Shown: positions 4,185-33,971 of the stretch, one piece after another
Layout of the letters: each line of letters begins with the position of its first letter
Numbering within the stretch: the first letter of the stretch is position 1
Origin: an uncultured Caryophanales bacterium
Lineage (GTDB): Bacteria > Bacillota_I > Bacilli_A > RFN20 > CAG-826
NCBI GenBank assembly: GCA_947306345.1
Contig: CAMZGG010000004.1
Location: forward strand, 1-39,170
Direction of reading: 5' to 3'
DNA: 39,170 nt
The notes under the pieces: generated by a model
What the model was told of the DNA's origin: nothing
The model's input: the letters and a program-made list of their open reading frames with translations, nothing else
The model's database searches: none
Program-made: the position numbers and the translations under genes

Positions 4185-4843
4185 AAATATCTCTCCAACT
4201 TATGCTTTTCAGCATTTAAGGTATCAATCCTTGCTTGTGGTAAGTTACCACTAGCGATTATGTTATCAATCTCGCTGATACGATTTTGATACTTTTCTTT
4301 GAAAGTTGCGCTTTTCTCACGTCTTAAGATTGGTCCAAATTCTAAGTCTTCATCACCAATCACAGCGGTTTCCGCTTTAATGAACTTGATGATTTCGTAG
4401 AAAATATCATCTTCTTTGACGATTTGTTCATCCGCAATAGCAAAGCCCATTTGCACTATTTCTTTTCTGGCTAATGGGACCGCACTATGTGCATCGATGA
4501 TAATTGTTTGGACGGAGATAAGCTTTTCAGGATGTTCCTTAAGGATTTTCACAATCGTTTGACCACCCATGCCCGCAATAACGACTGTAGCGACATCACG
4601 AGTGATATCTTTGATGCCATCGCTGAACAAAGGTGTGATTTTATCATTGACATGATATCTAATCAAATTAGCGCGTAATCTTTCAAATGGGCCTTCTTTG
4701 TTTTCGACCGCAAAGCCTTTAGAGACCTTACCAGATTGCACTAAAGCAATCATGAGTTTGCCATGATCACTACCGATATCGGCCACCACTGAGTTTGGGA
4801 CCATATCATGAATGATTTTCAAACGTTTGGATAATCTAATCAT
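4181..4843 (-). CDS. trmK: tRNA (adenine(22)-N1)-methyltransferase
   Basis: A 220-residue SAM-dependent methyltransferase of the TrmK (YqfN) family that makes m1A22 in tRNA. The N-terminus has RLKIIHDMVP and the SAM-binding VADIGSDHGKL; the catalytic-face motif VIAGMGGQTI follows at about residues 90-100. A C-terminal coiled-coil segment (about 175-218) is typical. The start overlaps the rpoD stop by 1 nt (TAATG) and the gene ends in TGA overlapping the next start, a direct demonstration that TGA is a stop in this genome. Confidence 0.94.
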   Translation of the reverse strand: MIRLSKRLKIIHDMVPNSVVADIGSDHGKLMIALVQSGKVSKGFAVENKEGPFERLRANLIRYHVNDKITPLFSDGIKDITRDVATVVIAGMGGQTIVKILKEHPEKLISVQTIIIDAHSAVPLARKEIVQMGFAIADEQIVKEDDIFYEIIKFIKAETAVIGDEDLEFGPILRREKSATFKEKYQNRISEIDNIIASGNLPQARIDTLNAEKHKLERYL

Positions 4844-6147
4844 TAAAGTTTTTCCTTATAGTCACCTAATCTCTTGGAACGAGTTGGATGTCTGAGTTTC
4901 TTGATAGCCTTAGCTTCAATTTGACGAATTCTTTCACGAGTAACGCCAAATTCACGGCCAACTTCTTCAAGGGTTCTTGGTCTATTATCGTCTAAGCCAT
5001 AACGGAGTCTAATGACTCTTTCTTCTCTATCGCTTAAGTCTTTAAGGATGGAGTAAAGTTCTTCTTTTAAGAGTTGTCTGGTGGTGAAATCCACTGGTGA
5101 TTCACTTTCCTTATCTTCGATAAAGTCACCTAAGTGGGAATCATCTTCTTCACCGATTGGTGTTTCTAAGGAGACTGGTTCCATCGCGATTCTTTGGATT
5201 TCACGAATTCTCTTCGCGCTTAATTCGCCGTTCATTGCTTCTGATATTTCTTCCGCAGTTGGTTCACGACCATAGTCTTGGATAAGTTGTCTTTGAATAC
5301 GTGTCATCTTATTGATGGTTTCAACCATGTGAACAGGAATACGAATTGTTCTTGCTTGGTCAGCAATCGCACGTGTGATGGCTTGACGGATCCACCATGT
5401 GGCATAGGTTGAGAACTTATAGCCTTTAGTGTAATCGAATTTATCAACAGCCTTCATTAAACCGAGGTTACCTTCTTGGATTAAATCCAAGAATAACATA
5501 CCTCTACCAACATAGTGTTTAGCGATGTTAACAACTAAACGCAAGTTAGCATTGATTAATGTTTGTTTGGCTTCTTCATCACCTTCTAAAATCTTCTTAG
5601 CTAAGATTGGTTCATCTTCCGCTTTTAAAAGGTCGTATTTACCGATTTCTTTAAGATACATCTTAACGGAGTCGTTGATTCTGACTTCACTACCGAGATA
5701 ATCGATGTCGATGTCTTCTTCGGCTTCTTCACCGTCTTCTTCGGCGAAGAAATCATCATCTGGTTCTTCGTCAAGATTCATCTTGCTTTCATCAAAATCT
5801 TCATCGAAGTCTTCATCTTCTTCTTCATCAGTGATAACTTCGATACCATTTTCTTTGAAGAAATTGATTAAATCTGCAATTGTATCATCATCTAAATCAA
5901 ATTGATTTAATGCATCATAGATATCGCTTTGGTCGATAATGCCTGATGATTTAGCTTTCTTTAAAAGAGAGTTCTTAATATCATCGAGTGAGAGCATTTC
6001 GCCATCTTCATCATAGATGCTTTTAACTTTCTTTTTCTTTTCGAGCTTAGGAGAACTTGGTGCTCCTTCACTTACTTTTGGGCGGCCTCTCTTTTTTGGT
6101 TTATCTTCTAAGACCGCTTCGTTTTTTTCTAATTTTTTTCTACCCAT
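4843..6147 (-). CDS. rpoD: RNA polymerase primary sigma factor (sigma A)
   Basis: The housekeeping sigma-70, 434 residues. The N-terminal tail is Lys-rich with KKRGRPK at residues 18-24, an AT-hook-like core. A region 1.1-like helical domain (about 53-110) and a highly acidic stretch (about 112-148) follow. Region 1.2 begins at [11 protein letters not shown], region 2 includes [32 protein letters not shown] and [12 protein letters not shown], region 3 follows, and region 4 has [21 protein letters not shown]. Regions 2-4 are conserved, in line with the TATAAT-type -10 boxes across the window. It lies 39 nt after dnaG; its AAAGGGG Shine-Dalgarno sits in the loop of a possible CAATG/CATTG hairpin. 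Confidence 0.97.
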
Positions 6148-11959: not shown

Positions 11960-13174
11960 TTATTCGTGTTTTCTATTAATTTCATCTTGATGAACGATAT
12001 TATTGACTCTCGCTTTACAAAGTAAGTTCTCCTCTAATCGGTTATCATAGCCAAATAACGGTGTTAAGGATTGATATAACAGCAATGAAAGACAGGTATA
12101 GAAAATGATGTTAGGGATGGAGAAGGACTTTTCCGCGACGCATAGAGCGAGACTAGCGATTAATAGGAAAAGGGCCACTACTCCTTTCTTGGCAAATTCC
12201 ATGTAAGCATAGCGATAAGCTTTAACCTCCATGGTTTTAACCTTCATTTCGACACCATCAACATCACTGATTGTTCTGAGGTCGCACTCTTCATGATAGA
12301 TCTCTTTTCCGAGGCTTCTGTTATAAGGGGAGAAAAAGAAGACATCGAGATAAGCAGCTAACAAAGAAGCAAAGATCAAAATCAGATAATCAAGCGAGTT
12401 GATAATCGAAATGGTGATGATGAGAATAACGATGAGCAAAGAGAAGAGAAGATTGAGGCCACTACTTAGAGAATACTTTTTATATTCTTGCCCGCGCTTG
12501 TAGAATTCGAAGTATTCATGACTGCGTACATAAGGTAAGAAACGTCTTAGATACTTATCGAAGCGCTGCATTCTTTTGAGCAAAGTAAATCTTAATAAGA
12601 TTTCACTTACTAGGCTCAGTCCGGCAAACACCAGGGGTAGAACAATGTTGCCATCAGGTTTAATAAAGAATGTAGCGACAGCGATAAATATTGCGGTAAG
12701 GGTCTGAAAGATTGATGAAACCACGGTACCTTTTGGGTCCTTAGAGTCAATGACGTTATAGGGGTATGGATGCTTATTAAAGCTGTTCACTGCTAAAAGG
12801 GTGCCATCCCAACTTGGTATTAACGAATCAATCTTTTGCCACTTGATGCCTGTTGCAGGATCATGAACTTTGACCGTATTGCCTTTTCTTTGACTGACCA
12901 AAACGGCGTGTGGACACTCATTTGCTCCGATGACAGTTAAAATCACAGGAAACTTATCAAAGTGTCTTAAATCGTCTTTATCGTCTATTCTTGCGGCAAA
13001 TAAGGTCACCTCGTAGCGCTGAGCAATCAAAGTTAGCTCTTGATAGTTGTATTGCCCATGCTCCTCTTCCTCGCTCAGATAGAGATATCTTTCATCTTTT
13101 TGCACTATGGCTAATAGCATTTTTAGACATGCCATGCCACAGCTTGAATTACTTAATTGTGGAATATAGTACAT
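11960..13174 (-). CDS. C39-family cysteine peptidase fused to six TM helices, no ATPase
   Basis: A 404-residue protein. Residues 1-130 are a C39 (bacteriocin-processing) peptidase with an intact active site: oxyanion Gln6, Cys12 in SSCGMACL, His89 in CPHAVLV, Asp105 in VHDPATG. Six predicted membrane helices follow (about 151-171, 177-198, 239-259, 261-281, 331-347, 353-372), then a 28-residue tail. In typical family members (ComA, LagD type) the same order is followed by a nucleotide-binding domain; here there is no Walker A, signature or Walker B, so the protein is only the peptidase and membrane half. Known family members cleave after Gly-Gly in peptide leaders and export the peptide. A separate ATPase may exist elsewhere. 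The upstream 37-nt element is shared with comEA. AGGAGG precedes the ATG by 6 nt. Confidence 0.85.
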   Translation of the reverse strand: MYYIPQLSNSSCGMACLKMLLAIVQKDERYLYLSEEEEHGQYNYQELTLIAQRYEVTLFAARIDDKDDLRHFDKFPVILTVIGANECPHAVLVSQRKGNTVKVHDPATGIKWQKIDSLIPSWDGTLLAVNSFNKHPYPYNVIDSKDPKGTVVSSIFQTLTAIFIAVATFFIKPDGNIVLPLVFAGLSLVSEILLRFTLLKRMQRFDKYLRRFLPYVRSHEYFEFYKRGQEYKKYSLSSGLNLLFSLLIVILIITISIINSLDYLILIFASLLAAYLDVFFFSPYNRSLGKEIYHEECDLRTISDVDGVEMKVKTMEVKAYRYAYMEFAKKGVVALFLLIASLALCVAEKSFSIPNIIFYTCLSLLLYQSLTPLFGYDNRLEENLLCKARVNNIVHQDEINRKHE

Positions 13175-13184
13175 TTAACACCTC

Positions 13185-13221
13185 CTATTAATGAAATAGG
13201 GGCGTTTTTCCAAATTTGTCC
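13185..13221 (-). promoter_or_regulatory. Com-type shared element, copy 1 (before C39 peptidase gene)
   Basis: On the minus strand GGACAAATTTG (13211-13221), 11 nt, then CTATTTCATTAATAG (13185-13199). It matches the comEA copy at 32 of 37 positions with identical spacing. GGACAA and CTATTT are 16 nt apart, a promoter-like distance. CTATT/AATAG is an inverted repeat; the adjoining AGGAGG (13179-13184) is the Shine-Dalgarno. The predicted leader would be only about 12 nt. Function is inferred. Confidence 0.6.
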
Positions 13222-13251: not shown

Positions 13252-13274
13252 AAAAAACCGGATAAATCCGGTTT
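13252..13274 (-). terminator. Intrinsic terminator of dnaJ
   Basis: A 9-bp inverted repeat, AAACCGGAT / ATCCGGTTT, with a short loop, followed on the minus strand by a T-tract at 13252-13257. The 5' arm overlaps the dnaJ stop codon. A T-tract on the other side also makes it potentially bidirectional. Confidence 0.85.
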
Positions 13275-30864: not shown

Positions 30865-32874
30865 TTAGAAAGATAATTCTTTATAAGTAATAGTTCCTTC
30901 TAAATCCGTTCTTCTAATAGGAATACGGTACTTGTTCAAAGTGTCAACGACACTTTTAGAAGGATGACCAAACTTATTGTTTTTACCACATGAGACAATC
31001 GCTTCTTTTGGATTGATATATTGAATAAACTTGTCTGAAGAAGATGTGTCTGAACCATGATGACCAAGCTTTAAGATGTCACATGGTATCTTTTCATTAT
31101 CGTTCATGATTTCCTTTTCCACCCATTTAGGGGCATCCCCCATAATGAGGAAATCCTTATTAAGGATATTGAAGGAAAGCACTAGGGAACGATCGTTCTC
31201 CTCATTACTAGATAACCCATATATGTTGTAGTTATTAAAAGTTAAGCCACATGTACTTACTGGATAGCTCGAATAATAATCATAAATATTGTTTACTTTG
31301 TATTCTTTTTGGAGGTTTTCTAACGCTCCATAATGGTCATAATCATAGTGAGTGATAAAGACTGTATCGATTTTATAAATTCTCTTCTTTCTTAAATAAG
31401 GGATTAGTGTCCCATTAGCGATGTCATTATAAGTGAGTCCTCCTGTATCAATAAGAATTACTTTTTGATGATATCTAATAAGGGTACAATCACCTTGGCC
31501 GACGTTTACAAAACTGACTTCACTTGTTAACCTATTTTCTATCGGTATAGCGTAAAGTACAGTCAAAGTAACCATTCCTATAGACAGCCATCTTTGAATC
31601 GGTCTAAAGCCAATTGTTAAATAGTATAGATAAACGATGTAAATCGCATAATACACTATTAGGATTACGATATTGAATTCAGGCATTAATAAGCCAAAGG
31701 ATAATGGCTTAATTACACCTGTATATCCTTTGAGTAAAAATATCAGTCCTTTATCCACTGCGTATATCGGTATCCTAAAGAAGCATAATAAAGAAACTAT
31801 ACCTATTAATAAGAATAACGGTGTGCTTACTATCTGACGTGGGAATGACATCACTACCACTTTGTGGTAATACATGATTTCAAACGGGATAAAGAATAGA
31901 TATATCGTAAAAGATTTCCATAAATAGGACTTAATCTTCTCACTCGGATAGACATGTCTAATAAGGTAAGAAATGATTGGTATTCCAAAGCCTAAGATGA
32001 AGCTATCTTGAGACGCTAAAAAGCGATCAAATAATAGGCAAATTATACCCGCAAAGGACACTACTTCTAGATATGAAAATCTCTTCTTCAGTGGATGCTT
32101 ATTTATCCATTTTAATAGGAGCAGAAACACCACTCTAAAGACACTGAATTTTGGTATAGTAAAAACAAGATAGATGGCTAAAAGTGCGATAGTTATTATC
32201 TCTGCGTGTTTATCCTTCAAAAATAGTTTTAATAAATAGTTAAGGCCTAAAGCAAATAGACTAATATAAAGGCCACTCGCAGAAAGAAATCTGGCTAAGT
32301 GCAGATTGGTTAAAGATTCACTAGTCGCACTTTCGTCGCCATCCGAAAATAGGATTGCCCCCACAATGCTTCTTTCTTCCTTATTAAAATGTGACAAGGC
32401 TTTTTCTCTAGATTCATTAATCCTGATAAAGTTACGCCATTTCACATCGATATGTTTAGGGGTTAAAGAACTATAGACACCTTTCTTATTAAGATAGCTT
32501 TTAAAATCAAAGCCTGATTCTAAGACGGTGAAATCTAATTGTTCTTTCTTCCCGCTGATGGTGAGATAGTCTCCTAAATCATATGTATGGTTTTTAGAAT
32601 AGACGTAAAGTCTTTCTCCTCCACTGTTAAAGAGGAAATAGTTCTCTTTCACGGTGTAAACGAATCCTGAATAAGATTGCTTATTATATGTTGGCTTTAT
32701 GAACGAATAGGTGAAACCAAGAACTATTCCTCCAAGACACATCAGCATCATTGGAAGTTTAAATCTTTTAAAGACAAAGAAGAGAAAGACTAAAGCTATT
32801 CCTATGAATAGGAAGATTGAATAAGTGAGTACATTCCCTAAATAAAAAGATAAGAAAAATAGGAAAACAATCAC
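30865..32874 (-). CDS. comEC: ComEC/Rec2 DNA-uptake channel protein
   Basis: A 669-residue integral membrane protein that forms the DNA-translocation channel in natural transformation. Two N-terminal membrane helices and an OB-like domain (about 60-130) lead to the Competence domain with many helices (about 185-430), then a C-terminal MBL domain with THYDYDHYGALE and LGHHGSDTS, thought to be the nuclease that degrades one strand. The GTG start overlaps the comEA TGA stop (GTGA), so the genes are coupled. ComEB, between them in B. subtilis, is absent. Confidence 0.95.
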   Translation of the reverse strand: MIVFLFFLSFYLGNVLTYSIFLFIGIALVFLFFVFKRFKLPMMLMCLGGIVLGFTYSFIKPTYNKQSYSGFVYTVKENYFLFNSGGERLYVYSKNHTYDLGDYLTISGKKEQLDFTVLESGFDFKSYLNKKGVYSSLTPKHIDVKWRNFIRINESREKALSHFNKEERSIVGAILFSDGDESATSESLTNLHLARFLSASGLYISLFALGLNYLLKLFLKDKHAEIITIALLAIYLVFTIPKFSVFRVVFLLLLKWINKHPLKKRFSYLEVVSFAGIICLLFDRFLASQDSFILGFGIPIISYLIRHVYPSEKIKSYLWKSFTIYLFFIPFEIMYYHKVVVMSFPRQIVSTPLFLLIGIVSLLCFFRIPIYAVDKGLIFLLKGYTGVIKPLSFGLLMPEFNIVILIVYYAIYIVYLYYLTIGFRPIQRWLSIGMVTLTVLYAIPIENRLTSEVSFVNVGQGDCTLIRYHQKVILIDTGGLTYNDIANGTLIPYLRKKRIYKIDTVFITHYDYDHYGALENLQKEYKVNNIYDYYSSYPVSTCGLTFNNYNIYGLSSNEENDRSLVLSFNILNKDFLIMGDAPKWVEKEIMNDNEKIPCDILKLGHHGSDTSSSDKFIQYINPKEAIVSCGKNNKFGHPSKSVVDTLNKYRIPIRRTDLEGTITYKELSF

Positions 32875-33416
32875 TGATGTAAAATCACGTAATTACGAAT
32901 CTTGTGATAGGTAGCGTTACCAATGCCGTAGACTTTCAATAAATCTTCTAAGGTACCGAAATTACCATTTTCACTACGATAAGAAACAATCGAACTCGCA
33001 ATCGATGTGGTGATGCCGTTTACTGACATTAATGTTTGAGCGTCATCTTGATTGATATTCACTTTAGATATCTCGCTCTTAGAGCAAATATCTGTCTCAT
33101 CAAACCTACTAGCAATGTAATAAGTTGTGCCCGCTTTTAATGTAACGTTAGTAAAATACGCTAAATCGTCTGCGTTAGCGGTTGTTCCACCAGCGGCTTC
33201 TAGTAAGTCATTCATTGTGATTCCATCGCTTAGAACGTATGTTCCGGCCTTATAGACTTCACCTTCAATTGTGTACTTACTGCCCTGTTGGGTGCTGACT
33301 TCGGTGATGTTGTTGCTGTTACCAGTATTGATAGGATTTAAGTCTGGATCAATGACTAAGAAGCCCACAATAACGATAAAAGCAACGATGACAACGCCTA
33401 TGAGTACTTTCATCAT
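32871..33416 (-). CDS. comEA: ComEA DNA-binding competence protein
   Basis: A 181-residue DNA receptor: one N-terminal membrane anchor (about 4-22), an extracellular SLBB-like domain (about 46-105, EGEVYKAGTYVLSDGITMNDLLEAAGG) and a helix-hairpin-helix domain at the C-terminus (118-181, VNINQDDAQTLMSVNGI and LLKVYGIGNATYHKI). It binds double-stranded DNA and passes it to ComEC. Start ATG 33416; GGAGG sits 9 nt upstream in the 3' arm of a terminator-like hairpin, with a T-tract as the spacer. The shared 37-nt element lies directly upstream. It ends in TGA, overlapping comEC. Confidence 0.95.
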   Translation of the reverse strand: MMKVLIGVVIVAFIVIVGFLVIDPDLNPINTGNSNNITEVSTQQGSKYTIEGEVYKAGTYVLSDGITMNDLLEAAGGTTANADDLAYFTNVTLKAGTTYYIASRFDETDICSKSEISKVNINQDDAQTLMSVNGITTSIASSIVSYRSENGNFGTLEDLLKVYGIGNATYHKIRNYVILHQ

Positions 33417-33418
33417 AT

Positions 33419-33451
33419 AAAAAAACCTCCTCTATTAATTAAATAGGGAGG
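33419..33451 (-). terminator. Hairpin with T-tract whose 3' arm is the comEA Shine-Dalgarno
   Basis: On the minus strand CCTCC-CTATT, loop TAATT, AATAG-(bulged A)-GGAGG, then seven T residues, all before the comEA ATG. It can end greA transcripts, which have no other good terminator. It hides the ribosome site in read-through RNA. Confidence 0.75.
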
Positions 33452-33468
33452 ATTTTTCAAATTTGTCC
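33432..33468 (-). promoter_or_regulatory. Com-type shared element, copy 2 (before comEA)
   Basis: GGACAAATTTG at 33458-33468 (minus strand), 11 nt, then CTATTTAATTAATAG at 33432-33446. GGACAA and CTATTT are 16 nt apart. It matches the C39-gene copy at 32/37. If CTATTT is a -10, transcription begins inside the hairpin, leaving the Shine-Dalgarno free. No sigma-A-type -10 is present. Confidence 0.6.
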
Positions 33469-33476
33469 GAAATTTT

Positions 33477-33950
33477 TTATTTAATTTCGATTTTTAAGAT
33501 TTCTACTTTGTAGGTTTTGATTGCTTTGACTTCGATAATGTCACCAACTGTCTTACCCACTAAGGCTTCACCTAATGGACAGGAGTTAGAGATTTTACCG
33601 TTGACTGGATCAGATTCGACTGTACCAACAATCATGTATGAAACTTCTTTATTGTTATCAACGAAACGGATGGTAACTGTAGAACCTAAGCCAACTTTCT
33701 TGGTGTTAGCTTTGCCTTCTTCAATGATTTCAGCGTTCGCGATAATATTTTCGATTTCTTTAATACGACCTTCGACTTCGGCTTGTTTAGCTCTAGCGGC
33801 ATCGTAGTCAGCGTTTTCGGATAAGTCACCTTGAGCACGAGCTTCGGCTAATTGAACCTTGATTTCTTCACGTGCTACATCGACTAAGTATTTTAATTCG
33901 TCTTGTAATTTTTTATAACCAGCTTTGGTAAGTTTTTGTTTGTCTGCCAT
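33477..33950 (-). CDS. greA: Transcription elongation factor GreA
   Basis: A 157-residue factor that rescues backtracked RNA polymerase. The N-terminal coiled coil begins LTKAGYKKLQDELKYL and has the tip acidic residues in QGDLSENADYDAA; the C-terminal FKBP-like domain has NSCPLGEALVGKTVGD. I chose the ATG at 33950 (MADKQKL) with GAGGG upstream; the TTG at 33971 is unsupported. Own promoter at 33977-34006. It lies downstream of ruvX-DUF1292 and just upstream of comEA. Confidence 0.96.
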   Translation of the reverse strand: MADKQKLTKAGYKKLQDELKYLVDVAREEIKVQLAEARAQGDLSENADYDAARAKQAEVEGRIKEIENIIANAEIIEEGKANTKKVGLGSTVTIRFVDNNKEVSYMIVGTVESDPVNGKISNSCPLGEALVGKTVGDIIEVKAIKTYKVEILKIEIK

Positions 33951-33971
33951 AACTTTCCCTCTTTTCTGCAA

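Follow-up and report, generated by a model that had tools for sequence, protein, structure and literature searches.

In most cells, competence has to be kept switched off for most of the time. How is this achieved where only a few bases separate com genes from highly expressed housekeeping genes upstream? The question is raised by a 39,170-nt stretch of DNA from an uncultured Caryophanales bacterium (hereafter the window), in which comEA directly follows a greA-like gene, and it extends to a group of uncultured gut Bacilli which have never been tested for transformation and whose com genes sit behind greA, valS, cinA, rnhB, rpiB or fhs. The assembly holding the window (G000) comprises 1.14 Mb and is 77% complete.

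A 50-nt element ahead of comEA

A reading of the window from its letters alone (the sequence-only reading) had claimed that a site before comEA shares an exactly spaced motif with a second site, each immediately ahead of a Shine-Dalgarno sequence (SD). Both sites were found as claimed, on the minus strand (Table 1): the second copy has the same layout and precedes another gene, the two are identical at 32 of 37 positions with exact spacing, and the SD forms the end of both. The chance expectation for such a match in shuffled windows is 0. The stop codon of the greA-like gene lies 8 nt ahead of GGACAAA, with no further terminator in between, and comEC overlaps comEA by 4 nt, so a single transcript is expected for both.

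Table 1 Features of the two element copies in the window, with the candidate sigma factor gene.
Feature	Position	Strand	Remarks
Element, comEA copy	33468-33416	-	50-nt element; reads GGACAAATTTGAAAAATCCTCCCTATTTAATTAATAGAGGAGGTTTTTTTATATG
GGACAAA	33462..33468	-	candidate -35 of comEA competence promoter, from sequence
CTATT	33442..33446	-	candidate -10, 15 nt past GGACAAA; CTAYT genus-wide
Hairpin 5' arm, CCTCC-CTATT	33442..33451	-	end of promoter spacer plus the -10 itself
Hairpin 3' arm, AATAG-A-GGAGG	33426..33436	-	contains comEA SD AGGAGG, 33426-33431
T7 run	33419..33425	-	past 3' arm; hairpin resembles an intrinsic-terminator end for greA
comEA	32871..33416	-	SLBB and HHH domains; PF12836 E=4e-19, PF10531, TIGR01259/TIGR00426
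comEC	30865..32874	-	Lactamase_B PF00753, DUF4131
greA-like gene	33477..33971	-	identified by sequence and neighbourhood rather than family scan
Element, second copy	13221->13174	-	
GGACAAA, second element	13215..13221	-	
CTATT, second element	13195..13199	-	
Hairpin, second element	13179..13204	-	CGCCCCTATT-TCATT-AATAGGaGGTG; SD in 3' arm, no T-run
C39-peptidase protein gene	11960..13174	-	404-aa membrane protein, N-terminal C39 peptidase domain, PF03412 E=3e-13
dnaJ intrinsic terminator	13255..13274	-	separate; upstream of second element
rpoD	4843-6147		RpoD
SigH-type sigma gene	C12:6664-7257		in G000, contig C12

The read-through leader of the comEA element folds with -12.7 kcal/mol (z -3.0) and the hairpin of the second element with -14.2 kcal/mol (z -5.4). 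A terminator remains the candidate reading for the comEA copy, which alone has the T7 run. It falls for the second site: with no T-run there and a separate dnaJ terminator upstream, terminator function is not common to both window sites. A search of the window against Rfam at gathering score returned 0 matches to a known leader or riboswitch, and a known Rfam leader was therefore rejected as the identity of the element.

We consider it highly probable that the element is a composite switch of promoter, hairpin and SD, read by a SigH/ComX-type sigma factor and driving a competence regulon. It would be an alternative-sigma promoter with GGACAAA as -35, a 15-nt spacer and CTAYT as -10, in which the end of the spacer and the -10 (roughly positions 16-27) would double as the 5' arm of the hairpin, while the sequence just downstream of the -10 would provide the 3' arm and SD. 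RNA arriving from the upstream gene would carry both arms, and the hairpin would hide the SD; where a T-run follows, it would also terminate read-through transcription. Since the 5' arm consists of spacer and -10, promoter-born mRNA, predicted to start after the -10, cannot contain it, and its SD would be free. Stray transcription from a neighbouring gene should therefore leave DNA uptake off. The regulon driven in this way would comprise comEA-EC, dprA, comFA-FC, recA, radC, a TadA-type pilus operon, the C39 protein and rpsF-ssb-rpsR. We infer promoter activity, the identity of the sigma factor, termination and the block of translation from sequence and predicted folding.

The element precedes competence genes across the genus

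The genome-wide comparison was built on individual loci. In the 1.14 Mb of G000 there are four copies of the 11-mer GGACAAATTTG (reversed control: 0), each of them a complete element directly ahead of a start codon. A relaxed pattern (GGACAAA-N15-CTATT-N3-T-N-WATA, at most two mismatches) returned 11 sites in this genome (control: 0), 8-18 sites in each other motif-rich genus genome, where control matches were much rarer, and well over 100 sites against about 25 control matches in the whole genus. With the strict pattern the control gave 0, and there was one chance-like match outside the genus. A chance repeat is ruled out by these reversed-control counts and by the shuffled windows.

GGACAAA-N15-CTAYT followed 8-10 nt on by an SD is present in most genomes of the genus. 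The motif variants change together at all sites of a species: CTATTTAATTAATA is the variant of G000 and its close relatives, CTATTGGTTAAGTA that of G002 and CTACTAAACATATA that of G004 and G006. Across 59 distinct sites from seven species, the conserved parts are GGACAAA, CTAYT and the SD, while the intervening letters vary; positions 1-3 and 5-7 of GGACAAA are invariant and position 4 is C in 58, counts made on sites whose filter already assumed the motif core and required GGA. The -10 ends at element position 27 and the SD starts at position 36-38 in all sites, a geometry which fits a predicted start of the element's own transcript downstream of the 5' arm.

The sites in G000 precede comEA-comEC, dprA, comFA-comFC, recA (after cinA), the gene for a 60-aa peptide with radC, a Tad-type operon (107-aa, 369-aa and 133-aa proteins and a T2SSE ATPase), the C39-peptidase protein, which belongs to the regulon in those species where this was checked, a MacB-like ABC transporter and a short unknown gene; more distant sites lie upstream of rpsF-ssb-rpsR and of brnT/brnA. 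Similar gene sets are preceded by the motif in other species, and the genes behind it make up a predicted competence regulon that is conserved across species. The sequence-only reading had taken the element for a competence promoter, against which a wide occurrence before housekeeping genes would have spoken; the sites precede this conserved regulon instead, which supports the reading, the word promoter standing here for motif geometry and regulon logic.

A few sites lie far from a start codon or at non-competence genes (brnT/brnA, ORF6N, small unknown proteins). At three loci (L066 on contig C31 of G000, L075 and L083) the element immediately follows lysS, some 224 nt ahead of rpsF-ssb-rpsR, and has a hairpin and T-run without an SD: a candidate promoter within a pure terminator. 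Another copy (L064, G000:C38:1557-1592), with a terminator-like hairpin but no direct SD coupling, lies ~60 nt ahead of a toxin-antitoxin pair resembling brnT/brnA. In many species the element occurs at small basic proteins of unknown family (L068, L073, L078, L100, L102, L129), some of which have an HFRIYFRNG or HSKTSGG motif; a Pfam scan of one of them gave no match. In G002 and G006, ORF6N-like proteins, named by sequence, either carry the element or lie behind it (L089, L093, L112).

Predicted pairing of the ribosome site

In read-through RNA, the probability that the SD is unpaired is 0.18 in 44 regulon leaders and 0.55 in 67 leaders of other genes with similar SDs, from seven species (p=5e-12; related species do not contribute independent sites, so this and other pooled p-values overstate and serve as guides only). 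The least paired regulon SDs are those of the four recA copies (0.57-0.95). At 67 sites the value is 0.12 in read-through RNA versus 0.48 in promoter-born RNA, and the comEA leader folded from its expected start is unstructured. Shuffling the 11-nt spacer alone abolishes the hairpin (z -10.0 in G000, -7.5 in G002 and -9.8 in G004).

Column-wise covariation (MAFFT, comEA leaders) was unusable, since the arms are out of register from one genus to the next, and arms were permuted instead. Permuting them among the comEA leaders of 12 genera gave weaker hairpins (p=1e-4); within genomes of seven species the p-values were 0.0046, 0.0018, 0.003, 0.028, 0.058, 0.089 and 0.25, with G006, G004 and G012 not significant. 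Own arms pair better with their own ribosome sites than swapped arms do: opposite the GAGGGA SD of the ABC gene stands a TCCC arm in every species, and in the genera G020 and G029 both SD and arm are altered (GAGGTGA/TCACCT). The comEA hairpin is kept across about 12 genera while the promoter letters drift. The 5' arm is weak or absent at the Tad operon in G004 and G006 and at several G002 sites, which makes sequestration frequent without being universal. The hairpin appears to be genuine and under selection.

Dependence on the upstream gene

At most sites the upstream gene is co-directional and its stop codon lies 5-19 nt before GGACAAA, which leaves no room for another terminator. Hairpins are stronger where the upstream gene abuts (-10.3 kcal/mol, n=39) than otherwise (-6.7 kcal/mol, n=25; p=6.5e-8, and p=2e-5 in three divergent species alone), and the T-run, counted after the G-rich arm, is denser there (6.3 vs 4.5 of 8). 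A GC-rich stem with U-run, as in an intrinsic terminator, is present where genes abut, as at greA-comEA and valS-60aa; the C39 sites have no T-run and do not qualify as terminators.

That hairpins are strongest and T-rich at abutting genes, and have no SD role at rpsF-ssb-rpsR and brnT, is also what one would expect if the promoter were the same and the hairpin served only to terminate the upstream gene economically, the hiding of the SD being a by-product of its GGAGG 3' arm. We regard this as rather unlikely, as the C39 sites keep the hairpin despite an existing terminator and no T-run, divergent Tad-operon sites keep it in several species, and in G020 and G029 arm and SD changed together.

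A hairpin that silences read-through RNA, the reading we prefer, finds what looks like a natural control in recA, expected to be the one regulon gene that needs basal expression. Behind cinA, recA retains GGACAAA and CTATT and has lost the hairpin (dG -2.3). Family-wide, the probability of an unpaired SD is 0.13 for comEA, 0.26 for dprA and 0.57 for recA; comparisons with recA outside the genus gave p=0.0016 for comEA and p=0.06 for dprA. Predicted sequestration, the match between arm and SD, the dependence on the upstream gene and the recA exception all support the earlier claim of an SD-hiding hairpin, and the read-through-silencing model is well supported in silico.

A candidate sigma factor

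The sequence-only reading had placed the responsible sigma factor or activator outside the window, which itself encodes RpoD. A conserved SigH-type gene was indeed located on contig C12 (Table 1). Its 207-aa product, encoded between rlmB and ecfA1/ecfA2, has one orthologue per genome in 16/16 genomes of the genus, and no alternative sigma other than this divergent factor turned up in all 16. In other families of the order, rlmB is likewise followed by homologues, which lie there ahead of the secE/nusG region, as does sigH in B. subtilis. These homologues match NCBIfam spore_sigH (1e-10 to 7e-14), while the genus protein itself scores weakly (E 0.04). The best PDB match of the sigma family profile is sigma-H (3mzy, E=1e-12); the AlphaFold model (mean pLDDT 79) has B. 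subtilis SigH as its nearest fold, and its list of fold matches is filled by sigma factors. On these comparisons, the most likely reader of the motif is the divergent SigH/ComX-type sigma at rlmB-sigma-ecfA. A search for autoregulation of the sigma gene by the element gave no convincing site ahead of it.

SigH of Listeria directs com genes from promoters with a AAAGGATTT-like -35 and a GGCGAAT -10 (PMC4754846). Neither the canonical SigH letters (AGGAWTT/GAAT) nor a com-box were found here; only GGA is in common, so promoter specificity would have diverged. The com genes of other genera share their own drifted promoter per genus (L176-L205, L270-L314), such as GGAAAA..CGACTTATT in G026 and GTCTATTAATTA in G019, which suggests that sigma and promoters drift together.

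GGA-type -35 elements occur for ECF sigmas too, and ECF factors are present in many of these genomes. The sites might then be read by an ECF sigma, or by an activator with the housekeeping sigma, in place of the SigH-type factor. This is improbable: ECF sigmas are patchy among the genus genomes, those of G000 and G002, the sole ones found there, share 26% identity, and no single one is conserved across the motif-bearing genomes as a common reader, whereas the SigH-type protein is orthologous in all 16 genomes, and com genes are under SigH control in Listeria (PMC4754846), L. sakei (PMC3364868) and S. aureus (PMC3486894). The ECF sigmas at L128 (G000:C38), L130, L134 and L142 belong to different families by species; the membrane protein after each may be its anti-sigma.

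A trans-regulated RNA switch (small RNA, protein or temperature) on a long leader, with GGACAAA as an RNA element rather than a -35, would suit the one unbroken conserved block of GGACAAA, A-rich stretch and hairpin and the absence of a sigma-A -10, but is very improbable, as the GGACAAA-to-CTAYT spacing is constant and promoter-like (15-16 nt) with variable letters between, nearby genera alter GGACAAA in step across com genes, no Rfam family matches, and recA keeps both boxes without the hairpin.

Pilus genes in the regulon

The C39 protein, a T2SSE/TadA-type ATPase operon and the 60-aa peptide are all found in the regulon (Table 1; L060:1045-4101; L061:2673-2856). The peptide is pilin-like, with a double-glycine-like leader, LSEEEMQNHYVGE; a search for its viral relatives yielded none, and nine genus genomes gave no match to the A24 prepilin peptidase (PF01478). 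Processing of a competence pilus by C39 might account for the presence of these genes without A24.

Significance and comparison with known systems

Beyond the individual switch, we think it probable that promoter, terminator of the preceding gene and ribosome-binding site are fused in a 50-nt element which insulates a cell-state regulon from read-through in both transcription and translation, family-wide and with letters that drift with the sigma. The element suggests how a compact genome silences a regulon without spacing or repressors. It yields a predicted full competence regulon, sigma and start sites in uncultured Bacilli, and motif and geometry could be used to find other read-through-proof regulons.

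In its logic the element parallels phage T4, where long upstream transcripts of gene e, soc and I-TevI fold a hairpin over the ribosome-binding site; the late (gp55, alternative-sigma) promoter lies in the 5' arm, and late transcripts without the 5' half escape the block (PMC3014915, PMC2988022). In both cases, here by prediction, upstream RNA hides the ribosome site and RNA from the element's own promoter escapes. The T4 examples, however, are individual leaders of phage genes, for which no merging with upstream-gene terminators is described, whereas the element here would serve a cellular sigma of SigH type and its regulon throughout a genus.

With the SigH/ComX regulons of Listeria, L. sakei, S. 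aureus and streptococci the system shares a sigma of the SigH family encoded at the SigH locus, a common promoter ahead of comEA, dprA and comF-type genes, and a promoter very near the start codon (22 nt from it in Listeria comEA; PMC4754846). It differs from them in that GGACAAA/CTAYT replaces AGGAWTT/GAAT or the com-box, an SD-containing hairpin is built in, and a TadA-type operon stands in place of comG.

Insertion sequences such as IS10 and IS50 are likewise protected from outside transcription. In IS200, impinging transcripts are terminated and/or their ribosome-binding site is hidden, while native transcripts are spared (PMC3196728). These are single transposase genes of mobile DNA, whereas the genes here are chromosomal and tied to a cell state. 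The logic of the element can be read as the escape of T4 gene e/I-TevI combined with an IS200-like termination of impinging transcripts. In a partial, limited search of the literature, no description of such an element as the promoter design of a whole regulon was found. The mechanism itself has a precedent in the late genes of phage T4; its regulon-wide use by a competence sigma factor appears to be new.
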